Under the pieces are notes generated by a model. That model did not search any database, had not been told where the DNA came from, and saw only the letters and a list, made by a program, of their open reading frames with translations. From contig CAIWXQ010000018.1 of assembly GCA_903916675.1 (NCBI GenBank), positions 124,001-188,000 on the forward strand: a DNA stretch of 64,000 bases, given 5' to 3'. A program made the translations under genes and the position numbers. This stretch comes from an uncultured bacterium (GTDB lineage Bacteria; Verrucomicrobiota; Kiritimatiellia; RFP12; CAIWXQ01). This document shows positions 12,807 through 62,884 of the stretch, one piece after another (the stretch's first letter is position 1; each line of letters starts with the position of its first letter).

Positions 12807-12840
12807 GCTGATCGGCTGTAGGGGTTAAGGCTGTAGGCGG
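12806..12840. repeat. ACAGCCT-type short repeat (reverse orientation)
   Basis: On the minus strand CCTACAGCCTTAACCCCTAC is followed by AGCCGATCAGCC. It is the same phrase as at 27340-27373, in the gap between the MATE gene and lysA. Confidence 0.6.
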
Positions 12841-22587: not shown

Positions 22588-22647
22588 GCTGTGGCGGGTC
22601 CGGCGGCCCCGCCCTGCCGTTGCTTCTCTGAAATTGCAGGAAGCGCG

Positions 22648-22676
22648 CTAACAGCCTTCAGCCTAACAGCCTTAAT
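22648..22676. repeat. ACAGCCT-type short repeat
   Basis: TAACAGCCTTCAGCCTAACA followed by GCCTTAA. The final TTA is the complement of the nucleoside-kinase stop codon. Confidence 0.65.
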
Positions 22677-24339
22677 ATTTCAGCAGGCTGCCGCCGATAT
22701 ACTCGCGCAGGATCGAGTCGCCGGGCACGGTAATGGACGGGAGGGAGAGGAAGTTGTGCAGAAAGCCGGTGAGGCGGCGCGCCTCGGCGTACTCGAGGTG
22801 GTCGGGCTTGACCTGGTTGAGCAGCGTCACGGCAAAGGGTTTCAGCACAGCCAGCTCGTAGTCGAGGGCGGAATTGAAGATGGCGTCGGCCAGGTGCTGG
22901 TAGGGGAATATCCAGCGCTTTTCGCCGCGCCGCACGGAGGGCCAGCGCTCGAGCGTGCGGAGGGCGGAGTGGCCGCGGAACTGGTCGTCGCGCACAAGGC
23001 GTCGGATCAGGCGGTTGTCGGTGGTGGAGATGCGGTTGTAGTGGTCCACACTGAGCTGCGTGAGGGCGCTGACGTAGATCAGGAACTTGACCGCGCGCGG
23101 CACCTGGCTGGTGAGCTGCGGGTTGAGGCAGTGGTTGCCCTCCATGATGATGACGTCCTGCGGGCCGAGGCGTGAGGTCTCGGCGCGGTCGCGACCGGTC
23201 TTGGTGGGGAAGTCGAAGTTGCGCAGGTGCACCTCGCGTCCCTCGAGCAGATCGAGCAGGTCGCGGTTGAGGCGCGGCAGGTCCATGGACTCGATGTGCT
23301 CGTAGTCCAAGTAGCCTTGTTCGTCGCGTGGGTTGTGTTCGTCGCCGACAAAGTAGTCGTCGGTGGAGACCACCACCGGCCGCAGGCCGTTGACGCGCAG
23401 GTGCGACATCAGCCGCTTGGCAAAGGTGGTCTTGCCGGAGGAGGAGGGACCGGCCACGAGCACCAGCCGGACCGTGGGCTTGCGGTCGGCAATCGCGGTG
23501 GCGATGGCGGCGAGCTTCTTTTCGTGCAGCGCCTCGGCGGTCTGGATGATGTCGTCGGCCTGGCGGTTGGCGACAGCCTCGTTGAGCTGGCCCACGGTGG
23601 TCACGCCGAGGATGCGCCCCCAGGCCGCATGCTCCTGGTAGACGTGGAAGAGGTGCGGCTGCGGCTCGAACGGCGCAACGCGATCCGGCGCGTCGAGGGC
23701 GGGCATGTCGAGCACAAAGCCGGTCTCGTACGGCGTGAGGCGGAAGAGCTGGAGCAGGCCGGTGCGGTAGACGAGCGGCTCGTGGGCGAGGTCGCGGAAT
23801 GTGCCGCAGCGGATGGTGGCGACACGCGGCGGGTTGCGGTGGCGCAACAGGTTGACGGTGTCGGCTTGGCCGGTCTGCTCGAACAGGCGCAGGGCATCCT
23901 CATACGATTCCCATTCCTGCTCGACGGGAAGGTCGCGCGCGACCAGCTCGCGCATGGCCTGCTCCAAGCGCGCCACGCGAGCGGCCAGTGGCGCCACGGC
24001 CTCGGCGTCCGGCCAGTCGATGGAGCAGAAGAGGCCGTTGCCGAGCGAATTGCGCACGCGCAACTGCGCGGCTGTCGAGATGTTGCGCACGGCCATGGCC
24101 AGCAGGAACCCGAGCGACCAGCGGTAGACGCGCCAGCCGTGGCTGGCGGCCAGCGTCAGCGGCGCAATGGCGGAATTGACAGTCAGGGGATAACTGAGCG
24201 AGACCACATCATTGTTGACGCGCGCGGCAATCACGTCCAGGCCGTTGGGCAACTTGGCCGGCAGCAGCTCTCGCACCCTCGTGCCCGCCGGCGTCGTTAC
24301 AGCCGGCTGGCCCTCGATGGTGATTGTCACATCGCGCAT
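22672..24339 (-). CDS. Uridine-kinase-like nucleoside kinase with N-terminal TGS-like domain
   Basis: The first 60 residues (TITIEGQPAVTTPAGTRVRE) look like the TGS domain found in threonyl-tRNA synthetase. A region similar to the ThrRS second additional domain follows. From about residue 290 there is a P-loop kinase: GPSSSGKTTFAKRL, DDYFVGDE and IMEGNHCLN, all typical of uridine kinase/phosphoribulokinase. Such fusions occur in anaerobes and phosphorylate nucleosides. A full synthetase is excluded because the aminoacylation core is absent. The stop codon falls in an ACAGCCT repeat. Confidence 0.85.
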   Translation of the reverse strand: MRDVTITIEGQPAVTTPAGTRVRELLPAKLPNGLDVIAARVNNDVVSLSYPLTVNSAIAPLTLAASHGWRVYRWSLGFLLAMAVRNISTAAQLRVRNSLGNGLFCSIDWPDAEAVAPLAARVARLEQAMRELVARDLPVEQEWESYEDALRLFEQTGQADTVNLLRHRNPPRVATIRCGTFRDLAHEPLVYRTGLLQLFRLTPYETGFVLDMPALDAPDRVAPFEPQPHLFHVYQEHAAWGRILGVTTVGQLNEAVANRQADDIIQTAEALHEKKLAAIATAIADRKPTVRLVLVAGPSSSGKTTFAKRLMSHLRVNGLRPVVVSTDDYFVGDEHNPRDEQGYLDYEHIESMDLPRLNRDLLDLLEGREVHLRNFDFPTKTGRDRAETSRLGPQDVIIMEGNHCLNPQLTSQVPRAVKFLIYVSALTQLSVDHYNRISTTDNRLIRRLVRDDQFRGHSALRTLERWPSVRRGEKRWIFPYQHLADAIFNSALDYELAVLKPFAVTLLNQVKPDHLEYAEARRLTGFLHNFLSLPSITVPGDSILREYIGGSLLKY

Positions 24340-24353
24340 GGTTTGTCTCTAGC

Positions 24354-24417
24354 CAGTTATCAGTAAGCAGTAAGCAGTTTGCCTTCTGAATCAACTGATT
24401 ACTGCTCACTGATCACT
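24354..24417. repeat. Heptamer-phased hairpin of CAGTAAG type
   Basis: The left arm CAGTTATCAGTAAGCAGTAA and the right arm AACTGATTACTGCTCACTGA pair over about 25 bp with three mismatches. Both arms are built of seven-base units. It fills the gap between the kinase and polyprenyl synthase genes. Confidence 0.75.
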
Positions 24418-24423
24418 TTCTTC

Positions 24424-25272
24424 TCACACCACTCGTTTCAGCATCTTCTCTGCCAGTGCGACAAGCGGCTCAACTGGGCCGGGGAGGTTGCTGAGCGCGG
24501 CCACGGCGGCTGTGGTGTGGTCAGCAGCCTGGCCACGCGCTTTGGCCGGGGACCAGAGCTGCAGGCAGGAGAGTTCCGGCGGCTTGCCGGCTCGGGCTTC
24601 GCCGGCGTCGAGCAGGTCATCCACGATCTGAAAGGCGATACCGAGATGGTTGGCGTAGGTGCCGAGCTGGTCTACCTGCGCGGGTGCGCCGCCAGCCGCG
24701 AGCGCGCCCATACGCATGGCAGCAACGAAAAGGTCCGCGGTTTTGTGCTGGTGGACAAAGGTGAGCGTGGCAGCGTCGGCCTGTCCGGCGAAGCGGATGT
24801 CCTCGACCTGGCCGGCCACCACGCCGACAACAGCGCGGCCGAGTTCAACGACCAGCGCAGCGGTTGTGCCAGGACGTTTTTCCGTGACGCGGCCAAGCAG
24901 CGCGAACGCCAACCCTTGTAGTGCATCACCTGCCAGCACGCCGACGGTCTCGCCATACTTGGCATGCACAGTGGGCTGGCCGCGGCGCACGAGGTCGTTG
25001 TCCATGCACGGCAGGTCGTCATGCGCCAGCGTGTAGGCGTGGAAGATCTCGACGGACAAGGCGGGCCACCAGGCATCGTCGCAAGCGCCGCCCGCAGCCT
25101 CGGCCGCGGCCAGGCAGAGAATCGGACGCAGCCGCTTGCCGCCGGTCAGGACCGCATGCCGCATGGCCTCAGCCAGCACCGTCGGGCGGGTGTCAACGGA
25201 CGGCAGCGCGGCGAGTAGCCGATCCTCCACCTGCGCTTTCCGCGCCTCCAGATAAGCGTCCAAAGCAAACAT
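24424..25272 (-). CDS. ispA: Polyprenyl (farnesyl/geranylgeranyl) diphosphate synthase
   Basis: The enzyme elongates allyl diphosphates with isopentenyl diphosphate. TGGKRLRPILCLAA binds substrate. The first Asp-rich motif is HDDLPCMDND near residue 85. The second is FQIVDDLLD near residue 215. The extra two residues between the Asp of the first motif are typical of short-chain bacterial FPP/GGPP synthases. Length is 282. It works downstream of dxs (18405). Confidence 0.93.
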   Translation of the reverse strand: MFALDAYLEARKAQVEDRLLAALPSVDTRPTVLAEAMRHAVLTGGKRLRPILCLAAAEAAGGACDDAWWPALSVEIFHAYTLAHDDLPCMDNDLVRRGQPTVHAKYGETVGVLAGDALQGLAFALLGRVTEKRPGTTAALVVELGRAVVGVVAGQVEDIRFAGQADAATLTFVHQHKTADLFVAAMRMGALAAGGAPAQVDQLGTYANHLGIAFQIVDDLLDAGEARAGKPPELSCLQLWSPAKARGQAADHTTAAVAALSNLPGPVEPLVALAEKMLKRVV

Positions 25273-27339: not shown

Positions 27340-27373
27340 CTACAGCCTTAACCCCTACAGCCTAACAGCCTGC
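27340..27373. repeat. ACAGCCT-type short repeat
   Basis: CCTACAGCCTTAACCCCTAC is followed by AGCCTAACAGCCTG. It lies just past the prfA stop and matches the copies at 12806, 22648, 26199 and 26431. Confidence 0.65.
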
Positions 27374-35771: not shown

Positions 35772-35793
35772 ATTCAGGATCCGGAATCCGGCC
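35772..35793. repeat. Heptamer-phased GGATCCGGAATCCGG repeat
   Basis: TTCAGGATCCGGAATCCGG shows the seven-base units AGGATCC and GGAATCC, between the exchanger and hydA. Confidence 0.5.
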
Positions 35794-52571: not shown

Positions 52572-53288
52572 TTATCCGGCTGCGTCCTCCTGCGGTCGCA
52601 GGGCGAAGCGGGTCTCGATCCAGCGCTCGATCCTATCCATCCGCGGCTGCAACACCAGAGCGCAGGCCATCCCCACCGCCGCGCCCACCGCGGTGTCCGA
52701 CAGGAAGTGCCGCATCACACCGATGCGCGCTGCGGCCATCAGCACCACCCAGAGCACGCAGAGCGGCCGCACTCGCGGCCACGCGAACCAGAGCACCGTC
52801 GCCACGGCTGCCACGTCTGCCGTATGGCCGGAGGGGAACGACTGGCACTTGGCGCTGAAGGAGTGGAACCACTCAAACGTTCCTGCCAGCGGCTGGTTGG
52901 GGCGCCACCGACCGATTCCCAGCTTGATCGCCAATCCCACGAGCCCGTTGAGTCCCTCTGCTGCCAGCAGCCAGAGGCAGGCGCGCCAGACCCGGTAGTT
53001 TGGTCGAAACCACCAGGCGCTTACCAGCACCACCAGCGCCGCCAGCGGATAGATTACCAAGGTGCCGCTCTGGCTGAACCAGAAGGCCGCAGCATGCCAG
53101 ACGCTGTCGGGATGGGCGTCGCTCCACTGCCGCACCGCGTTCGCAATTGTCAGGTCCGCGCCCCGGATGCCGAAAGTCGCCACAGCGGCCAGCGCTGCCA
53201 GCAGCAGCCAGAAGCCGGGCCTCTGCCAAGGGCTGGTTTCCGCACTTCGAACCAGGGGGTCACTGCAACGCATGCCGTTTCCATTCAT
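52572..53288 (-). CDS. PAP2-family phosphatase
   Basis: The PAP2 signature is present in three parts: KLGIGRWRPNQ near residue 121, SFPSGHTADV near 145 and RIGVMRHFLSDTAVG near 185. Several membrane segments surround them. These phosphatases act on lipid phosphates, such as undecaprenyl diphosphate or lipid A. The start at 53288 overlaps the TGA of the ArnT-like gene (ATGA), so the two are coupled. This fits a role in polyprenyl carrier recycling or lipid A change. Confidence 0.88.
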   Translation of the reverse strand: MNGNGMRCSDPLVRSAETSPWQRPGFWLLLAALAAVATFGIRGADLTIANAVRQWSDAHPDSVWHAAAFWFSQSGTLVIYPLAALVVLVSAWWFRPNYRVWRACLWLLAAEGLNGLVGLAIKLGIGRWRPNQPLAGTFEWFHSFSAKCQSFPSGHTADVAAVATVLWFAWPRVRPLCVLWVVLMAAARIGVMRHFLSDTAVGAAVGMACALVLQPRMDRIERWIETRFALRPQEDAAG

Positions 53289-55288
53289 TCCGCGCCCCGC
53301 ATCCTGCATCCTGCGCCCCGATACAGAATCACCCGCACGCGCTTGGTCCGTGAATAGTTGAGGCCGTCCGCAAAGCCCGCCTCGCGCACGGTCACACCTG
53401 CGCGTGCCGCCGCGTCCAGGAACGCCTGCCGGTTGAGGTGCTTGGGCGCCACGGCAATGGCGGCCGTTAGTTTTGCCCAGGCAACTTCCCCCACCGGCAG
53501 CAGCTGCGGCAAGGCCGCCGGCGCATCCTGTACCAGCACCAGAGCCTCAGGATCCTGCGCCAGTGCCTGTATAGCTGCCTCAGGGCTGGCGGCAAAACGG
53601 GTCTGCGTACCAAAAACGAACGCCACGCTTGGTTCATTGAACCCGAGCGAAAGAATATGCGTTGGTTTTCCGCGGGTCTCCTGCGCCACCAGAGCCGCGA
53701 CCTTGCGGGTCAGCCAGAGGTCGTCCAGCCGCGGCAACACGCTGGCGAACAGCAGGGGAAAGTAGAGTAGCGCGAACCCGGCTGCCACGGCAGCCAGCGC
53801 TGCCGGCCGCTGGCGCAGCCGCCAGGCGAAGAGCGCGGCCACACCTGCCACAACGGAGCAGGCAAATGCGGCCGGCAGCCACTGCCATCCGAGCAGGCGC
53901 GCGGCCAACGGAGGACCTGCCACGAGCAGAACTGCCGCGACCCACCAGATGAAGTCGGCAATGCGGCAGGTGAAGCGCCAGAAGCGCGAAGCAGGTTTAT
54001 CGGCGGCGCCCGCCTTGCGCAGTGCCAGAAACACCAGCGCCGGGTAGAGTGGCAGCACATAGTGCGGCAGTTTCGTGGGCGCCAGTTCGAACACCAGCCA
54101 CGACGGGATAAGCCATGCCAGCAGGAACGCGGCTGCCGGATCGCTGCGCCGCGCCTGCCAGGCGCGGCCGATTCCGCGCCAGGCCAGCGGAAAGAGCGGC
54201 CAGAGGAGGAGCCCTGCGGCTGCCAGGTAGGCCCCGGGCGGCGCGCCGTGGCTCTCCTGTGTGCCCTGCAGTTTGGCGCCGAAGTCATGCCCCAGCGATT
54301 CGCGCAGGAATTCACCATGGGTCGCGTGCTGGATCGCCAACAGCCACGGCAACACGATCAACACCATCAGGCCAAAACCAAAGCCTGGACGCAGCACGCG
54401 AAGCCAGCGGTAGTTGCGGTCATGCAGGCAGAGCGCCAGAATCGTCAGCCCTGTAATCAACGGTGTGACGGGCCCTTTCACAAGAATACCAATCCCGAGC
54501 ACGATCCAAAACCCGACGGCAAACCACTCGCCCGTTAATCCGATTAAGGTTGCGATTACCCACGCGATTGCGAGCAAGAAACAAAGAACCATTCCCGCCT
54601 CCGCTACAACCGCTCCCACCGTCCCTATGGTCGAAACGAGTTGGTGTGCCATTCCGCCACCCAACTTTGGCAAGAATATGAAGAACGCCAACTTCGCCGT
54701 CACCTCCCCTGCAAACCATAAGAACATCACGAAAATCTCGGCTTTACGCGCCCATCCATTCCAAAATCCACCGTTCGTATCTGCGTTCTTCCGGCCGTCC
54801 GGCCGTGCCAAGTACACGTTCGCCAGACAAAGCTGCGCGGCGCAGACCGTGGCGGCCAGCACGGCGTCCGTGGTGGCGGCGTGCGCGACAATCACCAGCA
54901 GCGGACAGGCGGCCAGCACCACAGCCGGCAACAGCGGCGAGTCAGGCTGCAGGCGTCGCGCCAGCAGGTAGACCAGCCAGACAACCAGAAGCGCGCCGAA
55001 AACGGAGACGAGCCGATAGGGCCAGATCTGGTCCTTGATCCCGGTCAGACGCACGCTGAGCGTGTGCAGCCAGTAGATGCCGGCCGGCTTCTTGTTGCGT
55101 GCCTCGTCGAGGAAGCGGATCTGCACATAGTTGCCGGACTCCGCCATCTGCTTTGAGGCCTGGGCATAGCGCGCCTCGTCGCGGTCGGTTACGGGCATGG
55201 AGCGGATGCCGGGGAGCGCCAGCGCCAGAAAGAGCAGCGTCAGCGCGGCCATGGCGAGCAGCGGTGACTTTGATTTCAAGCTTGCCAT
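53285..55288 (-). CDS. ArnT/PMT-family membrane glycosyltransferase
   Basis: The protein has about 12 membrane segments and the GT39/ArnT-type N-terminal loop TDRDEARYAQASKQMAESGN with the catalytic DE pair. LDEARNKKPAGIYWL is the second conserved loop. ArnT transfers aminoarabinose from undecaprenyl phosphate to lipid A; related proteins transfer other sugars. Its 667 residues exceed the usual 550 because of a hydrophobic insertion near residues 220-290. The start at 55288 overlaps the FkbM stop (TGATG). Downstream is the PAP2 gene. Confidence 0.85.
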   Translation of the reverse strand: MASLKSKSPLLAMAALTLLFLALALPGIRSMPVTDRDEARYAQASKQMAESGNYVQIRFLDEARNKKPAGIYWLHTLSVRLTGIKDQIWPYRLVSVFGALLVVWLVYLLARRLQPDSPLLPAVVLAACPLLVIVAHAATTDAVLAATVCAAQLCLANVYLARPDGRKNADTNGGFWNGWARKAEIFVMFLWFAGEVTAKLAFFIFLPKLGGGMAHQLVSTIGTVGAVVAEAGMVLCFLLAIAWVIATLIGLTGEWFAVGFWIVLGIGILVKGPVTPLITGLTILALCLHDRNYRWLRVLRPGFGFGLMVLIVLPWLLAIQHATHGEFLRESLGHDFGAKLQGTQESHGAPPGAYLAAAGLLLWPLFPLAWRGIGRAWQARRSDPAAAFLLAWLIPSWLVFELAPTKLPHYVLPLYPALVFLALRKAGAADKPASRFWRFTCRIADFIWWVAAVLLVAGPPLAARLLGWQWLPAAFACSVVAGVAALFAWRLRQRPAALAAVAAGFALLYFPLLFASVLPRLDDLWLTRKVAALVAQETRGKPTHILSLGFNEPSVAFVFGTQTRFAASPEAAIQALAQDPEALVLVQDAPAALPQLLPVGEVAWAKLTAAIAVAPKHLNRQAFLDAAARAGVTVREAGFADGLNYSRTKRVRVILYRGAGCRMRGAE

Positions 55289-55989
55289 CAATGTTTCCGG
55301 CCGTGACGCCACAGGCGGTGGCGCACCATGCGGTACGGCAGCGCGAGGTAGTACTTGCGCAGCCGTGACAGGAACGACGACTGACTCCGCAGCGTCCACG
55401 CCAGGTCACGGCGCAAATACCAGCCATTGCAGCCGGTGCGGTCCACCAGGCGATACCCCTTGCCCCTGAGGAAGCGGTGGCGCGACAAATCGTGGACGTG
55501 ATCTTCGATGATGATCAATGCCGGCCGGAAACGTCCGAGGCTCAACCCTTGCAAAGCGGGAAGTTCATTGCCTTCGATGTCAATCGAAAGAAAATCGACG
55601 GACGTCAATCCGGCCTCGTCCAGAATGCTGTCCAGTGCGCGCACGGGGACACTCGGCAACGATTTCTGCGCGTTGTTTTCAAACACCAGCCGGGCCAGAG
55701 CGGGGTCGTTGTCGGGAAGCTCCATGTAGGCCATGCCGACCTGATCAGGCGCCGAGACTGCCGCTTCCACCACAATGCTAGCCGGCCGGTTCTCGCGCAG
55801 GGCGCGGGCCAGTTGGGGCAGCGGCTCCACCAGCACCCCGCGCCAGCCAAGCTGCTCCAGCAGGTACGTCTGGCTTAATGCGATCGGGTCGTTGGCGCCG
55901 ACCTCCACAAATACACCCTTGTAACCGCGTCCAAAGAACTCGGCCACGCGGACATCTTCGCCATACTGCGCAAACGATTGCTGATGCAA
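55288..55989 (-). CDS. FkbM-family methyltransferase
   Basis: The protein begins QSFAQYGEDVRVAEFFG and has FVEVGANDPIALSQTYLLEQ (SAM loop) and VDFLSIDIEGNELPALQGL, the family's acidic motif. FkbM-type enzymes O-methylate sugars, and in LPS clusters methylate glycan residues. At 233 residues the length is normal. It heads a three-gene operon with the ArnT-like and PAP2 genes. A second FkbM-like gene is at 7438. Confidence 0.9.
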   Translation of the reverse strand: MHQQSFAQYGEDVRVAEFFGRGYKGVFVEVGANDPIALSQTYLLEQLGWRGVLVEPLPQLARALRENRPASIVVEAAVSAPDQVGMAYMELPDNDPALARLVFENNAQKSLPSVPVRALDSILDEAGLTSVDFLSIDIEGNELPALQGLSLGRFRPALIIIEDHVHDLSRHRFLRGKGYRLVDRTGCNGWYLRRDLAWTLRSQSSFLSRLRKYYLALPYRMVRHRLWRHGRKH

Positions 55990-57672: not shown

Positions 57673-57675
57673 GGG

Positions 57676-57721
57676 GCAGAATTCCCAATTCCGGCTCCTG
57701 AATTCTGAATTGACACAGGAA
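57676..57721. repeat. Heptamer-phased CTGAATT repeat
   Basis: AGAATTCCCAATTCC and CTGAATTCTGAATT form short inverted and direct units of seven bases in the fabH-fabF gap. Confidence 0.55.
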
Positions 57722-57726
57722 CGCAC

Positions 57727-61687: not shown

Positions 61688-61722
61688 GCCGCCAGCGGCC
61701 CGTGAGCTATGGGCTGTTCAAC

Positions 61723-61752
61723 GATCCTGAATCTTGAATCCCGCATCCGAAG
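61723..61752. repeat. Heptamer-phased CTGAATC repeat
   Basis: CCTGAATCTTGAATCCCGCA is followed by TCCG. Units of seven bases lie in the etfB-etfA gap. Confidence 0.5.
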
Positions 61753-61777
61753 CGAATCTTTCACGAGGAACACGAAC

Positions 61778-62849: not shown

Positions 62850-62884
62850 CCGCCAATGACTGATGACCAATGACCATTGACGCT
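62850..62884. repeat. Heptamer-phased ATGACCA repeat
   Basis: CAATGACTGATGACCAATGA is followed by CCATTGACG. Units of seven bases lie in the etfA-dehydrogenase gap. Confidence 0.6.

Follow-up and report, generated by a model that had tools for sequence, protein, structure and literature searches.

How does an intergenic gap come to be filled by two arms of seven-base units that mirror each other across a loop? The question is raised by a hairpin at positions 24354-24417 of the window, the 64,000-nucleotide stretch analysed here (contig C18, positions 124001-188000), which belongs to a 2.48-Mb draft genome (G000) of 48 contigs that is 87% complete. Composed of CAGTTATCAGTAAGCAGTAAGCAGTT, a 13-nt loop and AACTGATTACTGCTCACTGATCACT, the hairpin occupies an entire 84-bp intercistronic gap (24340-24423) on the minus strand, flanked by two minus-strand genes, a polyprenyl synthetase gene (24424-25272) and a uridine-kinase-like gene (22672-24339). 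An arm of three and a half CAGTNAN units is followed by the loop and then by its inverse. The 5′, G-richer arm (24355-24379, plus strand) consists of CAGTTAT, CAGTAAG, CAGTAAG and CAGT and lies on a lag-7 run at 24354-24378 with a score of 13. The 3′, C-richer arm (24393-24417, plus strand) reads CAGTGAT, CAGTGAG, CAGTAAT and CAGT in reverse complement (lag-7 run 24394-24417, score 9.5). Watson-Crick pairing at 22 of the 25 arm positions bears out the hairpin that a sequence-only reading of this DNA had proposed here. As RNA, the gap folds with a z score of −4.1 on the plus strand and −5.7 on the minus strand, and none of 200 shuffles was equally stable.

The loop (24380-24392) is unlike those of this genome's other elements. 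A search of the genome with the stretch 24300-24480 returned only two matches, the single other match being 72% identical, on which ground we reject a recent multicopy element in this genome. No Rfam family matches the window at gathering score, and a known structured RNA is rejected as well. In a congener whose genes stand in the same order, this gap measures 51 bp and carries no array.

Seven-base period in the gaps

The periodicity was measured in 246 gaps of 20-400 bp (35.9 kb in total) drawn from 464 kb, namely the window and 400 kb of further stretches, or about 19% of the genome, with genes called by a simple in-house codon-usage caller. Identity at lag 7 in these gaps is 0.2855, whereas dinucleotide shuffles give 0.2605 (z = 13.1); coding DNA is flat at this lag (0.2625). 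Lag-7 runs scoring at least 8 number 35 in the gaps, compared with 0.85 in shuffles and 2.0 in coding DNA of the same total length, an excess of about 40-fold and 17-fold, respectively. Runs at lags 4, 5, 8, 10, 11 and 13 stay near background in the same gaps, and the gaps of E. coli K-12 (27 gaps, 3.7 kb) show a lag-7 z of 0.2 and zero runs. The period that the sequence-only reading had put in the gaps is thus well above shuffled controls, and neither of the outcomes named against it there (no excess over shuffles, or matches lost on masking low complexity) was found. Some of the sites from which it started are individually weak (6 of 11), as an artefact of chance or low complexity would have it, but the shuffled, coding, other-lag and E. 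coli controls refute such an artefact and leave it next to impossible.

Many different units were indeed found in this genome: CAGTNAN, TGACCAA (= TGGTCAT), GNATCCN/CAGGATG, CAGAATT/CAGAGGT, GAATTAC, GGAATGC and GAATATC. The earlier supposition that they are unrelated words amplified gap by gap finds no support, since units recur as genome-wide families, with 37 matches to CAGTNANCAGTNANCAGT and 29 to TGACNANTGACNANTGAC in this genome. Nor are they all distinct: CTGAATC, GCATCCT, GGATCCG and CTGAATT all fit GNATYYN and form one family. Tandem 7-nt units in non-coding DNA at many genome sites, the mark of STRR-type repeats, are therefore present. In sampled stretches, relatives from the same order carry units of their own: CGGTTAT, CGGTGAA and TGGTAAA in G018, CCTGAAC, CAGAGGT and AGGTGTT in the congener G001, and GGGTAAA, GAGGTTG and TGACGAG in G004; no heptamer units were found in the sampled stretches of G007 and G029. 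Gap repeats of other periods can look similar, as do the CTCTGTGTCCTCTGTG-type 9-mers and ATTCGCGTGTTTCGCGGGC motifs of L042 (3520-3762) and L040 (2494-2786).

The eleven sites originally listed in the window are of unequal quality. Four are strong (24354, 62850, 53295 and 61723) and 57676 is borderline. An unpaired C-type array, ATGACTGATGACCAATGACCATTGAC, lies at 62856-62881 on the plus strand (score 11.5), in the interval that separates a stop codon from the next gene's conserved ribosome-binding region. A second C-type array, ATCCTGAATCTTGAATCCCGCATCC of the GNATCYN family, occupies 61724-61748 (plus strand, score 8) in the gap 61688-61777, and two copies of CTGAATT stand at 57698-57711 (plus strand, score 7) in the gap 57673-57726; all three are absent in the congener. 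The five ACAGCCT sites (12806, 22648, 26199, 26431 and 27340) and 35772 are weak, with scores of 4 to 6. They correspond to a CAGCCTN pair of mixed 7/8 spacing at 22652-22664 (plus strand), to similar CAGCCTN pairs at 12828, 26204, 26436 and 27337, and to an ATCCGGA pair at 35779-35791 (plus strand, score 6), none of which is individually above chance; at 27340 the lag-8 score exceeds the lag-7 score. As a class, runs at this score level amount to 74 in the sampled gaps, where roughly 14 are expected by chance.

The sites had been placed in gaps throughout, which does not hold for one of them: the GCATCCT array at 53290-53314 (plus strand, score 10.5; TRF) overlaps the last codons of a minus-strand ORF call (53285-55399). 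Arrays reaching the 3′ end of the upstream gene were also seen at L034 4839, L033 4825, L037 19938, L041 1039 and L046 19703, and in these five cases the array supplies the stop codon of that gene.

Inverted arms and their order

The hairpin at 24354 had been singled out among the listed sites, yet pairing with an inverted arm of fixed polarity proved to be the rule rather than a one-off, although many arrays are unpaired. In this genome, 19 of 30 arrays have an inverted partner in the same gap that scores above the best of 50 shuffles. For 16 of the 30, the partner score is in the top 5% relative to the genome's other array gaps, so that the partner belongs locally to the same family. The pairing is tied to the seven-base period. 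Across 80 loci from many phyla (590 kb), an inverted partner accompanies 48 of 120 lag-7 runs, whereas lags 5, 6 and 8-13 together give 7 of 111 (Fisher p = 5e-10). This test left out the CAGT family, and its loci, having been found via CAGT hairpins, represent array-prone genomes. In G018, heptamer arms enclose conserved GC hairpins of the form GACGCCCC-NNN-GGGGCGAC (L075 3842-4031 and 11216-11422; L073). These inner hairpins are common to elements with different heptamer units, as in a modular element, and with them more than one kind of element may be mixed in our sample.

The order of the arms is fixed. Direct scans of 2.9 million viral contigs yielded 41 inward CAGTNAN stretches and zero outward ones, the contigs being partly redundant, so that stretch counts overstate independence and the zero is unaffected. 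Neighbouring CAGT arrays at most 100 bp apart, chosen in the viral contigs regardless of partner, were inward (CAGT...ACTG) in 52 cases and outward in 0. Among 162 genomes of the window's order, inward pairs occur in 2 and outward pairs in 0. Other unit families follow the same order, with the 5′ arm G-richer in 70 cases against 6 (28:3, 25:2 and 17:1 in three data sets; p = 6e-15). The G skew of the 5′ arm is 21:0 for array hairpins in the window's order, and other gap hairpins of the order are also skewed, to a lesser degree (54:22).

Since an inverted pair is symmetric, this polarity holds on both strands and cannot derive from gene direction; it needs a step that distinguishes 5′ from 3′ on one strand. 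The same sense is followed only weakly by unpaired arrays, judged by their position relative to the gap edge (23:11). Those in ACTG sense are closer to the downstream gene in 20 of 29 cases and those in CAGT sense closer to the upstream stop in 43 of 69 (Fisher p = 0.007).

Turnover and origin of the arrays

Gain and loss of the arrays is rapid and differs between gaps and between lineages. Four gaps of the window were compared with those of a congener that keeps the gene order. In the congener all four lack the array, and their stop-side and start-side sequences are otherwise alignable. Arrays of G018 are likewise missing from its congeners in genus g3, and one of them lies beyond an ordinary terminator that the congeners keep; synteny in this genus breaks near the arrays, so that the comparison speaks to absence and not to ancestral states. 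The change in length proceeds in whole heptamers, as seen in viral contigs that are 93-99.8% identical and differ by several indels of exactly 7 nt inside CAGTNAN arrays. In one more distant viral pair, CAGTGAT units appear to have been swapped for CAGTTCC in the same gap. At the variable positions of the units, identity within arms is 0.61 against a background of 0.29-0.34, and in-register identity between arms is 0.255 and 0.35 where 0.29 and 0.34 are expected. Being alike within but not between arms, the variable positions indicate that the arms lengthen and homogenise separately, and we reject an ongoing process in which one arm is copied onto the other by fold-back, as in-register identity is not in excess. 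A general seven-base process acting in gaps independently of the unit, as the sequence-only reading had envisaged, is supported by the special standing of period 7, the homogenised arms and the whole-heptamer indels.

The reading that we prefer, with a confidence that goes about halfway, is that these hairpins form part of a widespread group of lineage-specific intergenic stem-loop elements whose heptamer-array arms evolve by 7-nt slippage. Polymerase slippage in seven-base units would add units on hairpin-forming DNA and so lengthen the arms, a step to which the 7-nt indels lend direct support. Elements or their seeds would enter gaps as lineage-specific insertions, perhaps phage-borne, for which their absence from congeners and their patchy spread speak, and they may travel as non-autonomous passengers resembling REPs or MITEs, in part aboard phages and other mobile DNA. 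We infer such passenger spread from the lack of shared loops and flanks and of a REP-type transposase. No transposition intermediate or conserved end was found, nor, in an unsystematic look, a target-site duplication, and the term passenger element is thus an analogy; compared with MITEs, the arms are inverted and polar, with ends and loops not conserved in G000. A strand-directional filter would remove every pair except the inward ones that begin with the G-rich arm. Its simplest form could be the folding of nascent RNA, in which the G-rich arm comes out first and the C/U-rich arm lies in a weaker RNA-DNA hybrid, so that in transcribed gaps only the G-rich-first orientation might be tolerated or favoured. 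A tentative alternative, which we regard as doubtful, is a single class of polar heptamer-armed hairpins, selfish or enzyme-made, across many bacterial phyla and their phages; a machinery with a 7-nt register would write or extend the arms, the unit word drifting freely under a fixed architecture of inverted arms with the G-rich one leading.

The arrays could also be a pure mutational product, neither element nor function, in which 7-nt replication slippage builds one arm and fold-back template switching its inverse. Slippage favouring 7 nt has been put forward in the literature for heptamer repeats, and the 7-nt indels, the homogeneity within arms, the lack of conservation of the arrays and the lack of an RNA-level pairing preference all agree with it. 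Local mutation does not, however, predict CAGTNAN in dozens of gaps of one genome when it is rare in the order and recurrent in many phyla, nor does it predict a G-rich 5′ arm. The arms moreover lack common variable positions, although later slippage within each arm could erase such sharing. Slippage alone does not explain the shared units, the inverted partners or the polarity, and we consider the purely mutational account rather unlikely. It is similarly unlikely, and in our estimate marginally more so, that the arrays are functional cis elements acting on the mRNA level, mRNA ends or translation of their neighbours. Their location in the stretch from the stop codon to the ribosome-binding region, z scores for folding of −4 to −6 and a fixed polarity of the kind expected for transcription would suit such a role, as would the TAACTGA sets of Beggiatoa, which mostly point at a nearby start codon (PMC4679880). 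Against it stand the failure of arrays to be kept in orthologous gaps, the G018 array located beyond a retained terminator, and flanking genes that are unrelated housekeeping genes. Gene orientations around array gaps (19/3/3) show the same mix as those around all gaps (154/40/46). The 8 nt past the arm contain 2.6 T on average, with 5 or more in only 9%; without a T tract or an orientation bias, and with no terminator at 24354, an intrinsic terminator is rejected. G.U and A.C mismatches are equally frequent on the sense strand (50:49 overall; 17:17 and 33:32), which gives no RNA-level pairing preference, although the same equality would result if the hairpin served both directions of transcription.

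The units themselves offer a further candidate role, as CAGTRAN and TGACNAN bring TAA or TGA into each of the three frames (7 = 1 mod 3). We dropped stop codons as the cause because the R/Y states of the arms are not associated (18, 19, 10, 18; p = 0.32) and unit families without a stop exist.

REP and BIME palindromes, which travel with RAYT transposases, occur as near-identical copies and carry a GTAG-type tag. The elements described here resemble them in being short, intergenic, palindromic, multicopy, polar and lineage-specific, which would fit a REP-type mobile element moved by the genome's own Y1 (RAYT/IS200) transposase. They differ in their unique loops and flanks, which the copies do not have in common, and in arms made of heptamer arrays; no conserved tetranucleotide tag was seen, and the many near-identical palindrome copies of 20-40 bp that define REPs were not found for 24354. 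The Y1 transposase domain PF01797, to which 19 of 30 relatives are positive, has no match in G000 (87% complete) or in the array-rich G018 and G003. This explanation is mostly refuted for this genome, and we hold it to be very improbable. A separate REP-like palindrome, GGCGGG(T)CCGGCGGCCCCGCCCTACC, occurs in the window at 22593-22618, at L041:105-143 and in about 60 places in G001, where the copies are 90-100% identical over 29-40 bp; G001 has Y1 transposases and G000 none.

Distribution and known heptamer repeats

The CAGTNAN hairpin pattern was found in at least 116 stretches of named genomes; it has 28 fixed bases, and with uniform base composition we estimate that about 1e-4 matches would arise by chance in 264 Gb. 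Many of the matches are metagenome bins, in which single phylum assignments may be wrong, and the phyla among the matches listed are Cyanobacteria, Chloroflexi, Deltaproteobacteria, Acidobacteria, Bacteroidetes, Planctomycetes, Verrucomicrobia, Chlorobi, KSB1 and CPR groups. Within the order to which the window belongs, CAGT hairpins are present in only 2 of 162 genomes. On some virus-like contigs, which also bear endolysin and transposase genes, many of the spaces between genes contain a CAGTNAN hairpin. In L376, L374 and L273, viral contigs from related samples, hairpins recur every 0.5-3 kb or so, 8 to 9 per about 12 kb, and L273 bears the endolysin and transposase genes; this phage group uses or tolerates CAGTNAN hairpins at high density.

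Heptamer repeats have so far been reported piecemeal, with three units in Calothrix, TAACTGA in Beggiatoa, GGGAATC in Xanthomonas and the trnL P6b stem, each treated as a local oddity; our results suggest one architecture behind them. Cyanobacterial STRR heptamers (Calothrix/Anabaena) reportedly have the units CAACAGT, TTGGTCA and CCCCART, and we take CAGTNAN and TGACCAA to be the words of STRR3 and STRR2. The parallel with cyanobacteria had been drawn as one of style in a different lineage. It goes further than that, as CAGTNAN is present in Nostoc, Anabaena, Scytonema, Fischerella and other cyanobacteria, in keeping with the occurrence of STRR repeats in heterocystous species, without being confined to them. 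The GGGGA(T/C)T repeats of Nostoc and GGGAATC repeats of Xanthomonas have been described as direct tandem repeats and studied for quadruplexes, with the remark that inverted copies could form stem-loops (PMC4692102). Heptamer arrays in gaps, genome-wide unit families and length variation are common to STRR, the Nostoc and Xanthomonas repeats and the arrays analysed here. In those organisms the repeats are depleted between divergent genes. Inverted pairing as a rule, polarity and generality across units and phyla are features of the present arrays and not of those descriptions.

The TAACTGA direct repeats of Beggiatoaceae, Cyanobacteria and Bacteroidetes are intergenic and have been proposed as binding sites (PMC4679880). 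The reverse complement of TAACTGA, TCAGTTA, corresponds to the CAGTTAT unit found here, where the unit is the degenerate CAGTNAN. The same study reports relatives with shorter, repeat-free gaps, 7-nt indels between close Cyanothece strains, a range of heptamers in Microcystis, and one inverted repeat among the 170 TAACTGA sets of a Beggiatoa genome (PMC4679880). It calls the distribution "very limited" (PMC4679880), a result of searching only for exact TAACTGA x7, whereas CAGTNAN hairpins are far more widespread in our scan. In the P6b stem-loop of the Nostoc trnL(UAA) group I intron, degenerate heptanucleotide repeats pair into a hairpin, two unit classes (TDNGATT and NNTGAGT) build the same stem and copy number shifts by 7 (PMC3488679, PMC4476775). 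A heptamer-armed hairpin as such is therefore not new; P6b is a single locus within an intron, whereas the present arrays form a genome-wide intergenic class. As far as our searches of the openly licensed literature show, three features are without earlier description: the polarity of the arms, the association of inverted pairing with period 7, and the occurrence with many units in many phyla.

Two regularities stand out, a period of exactly seven and, for CAGTNAN, an arm order never reversed in the viral contigs or the genomes of the order. Slippage, hairpins and transcription would be connected by a mechanism that moves in 7-nt steps and senses strand direction. On a short evolutionary timescale, the elements alter how far apart cotranscribed genes lie. 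In three related cyanobacteria (L083, L127 and L137), CAGT hairpins have similar flanks (GGGCAT...GAAT / GTTGTCC) and similar AATT loops; their units differ (TTA/GAT, TAT/GAA and GAC/TAT), and STRR1-like GGGGATT arrays stand outside the hairpins as further arms.
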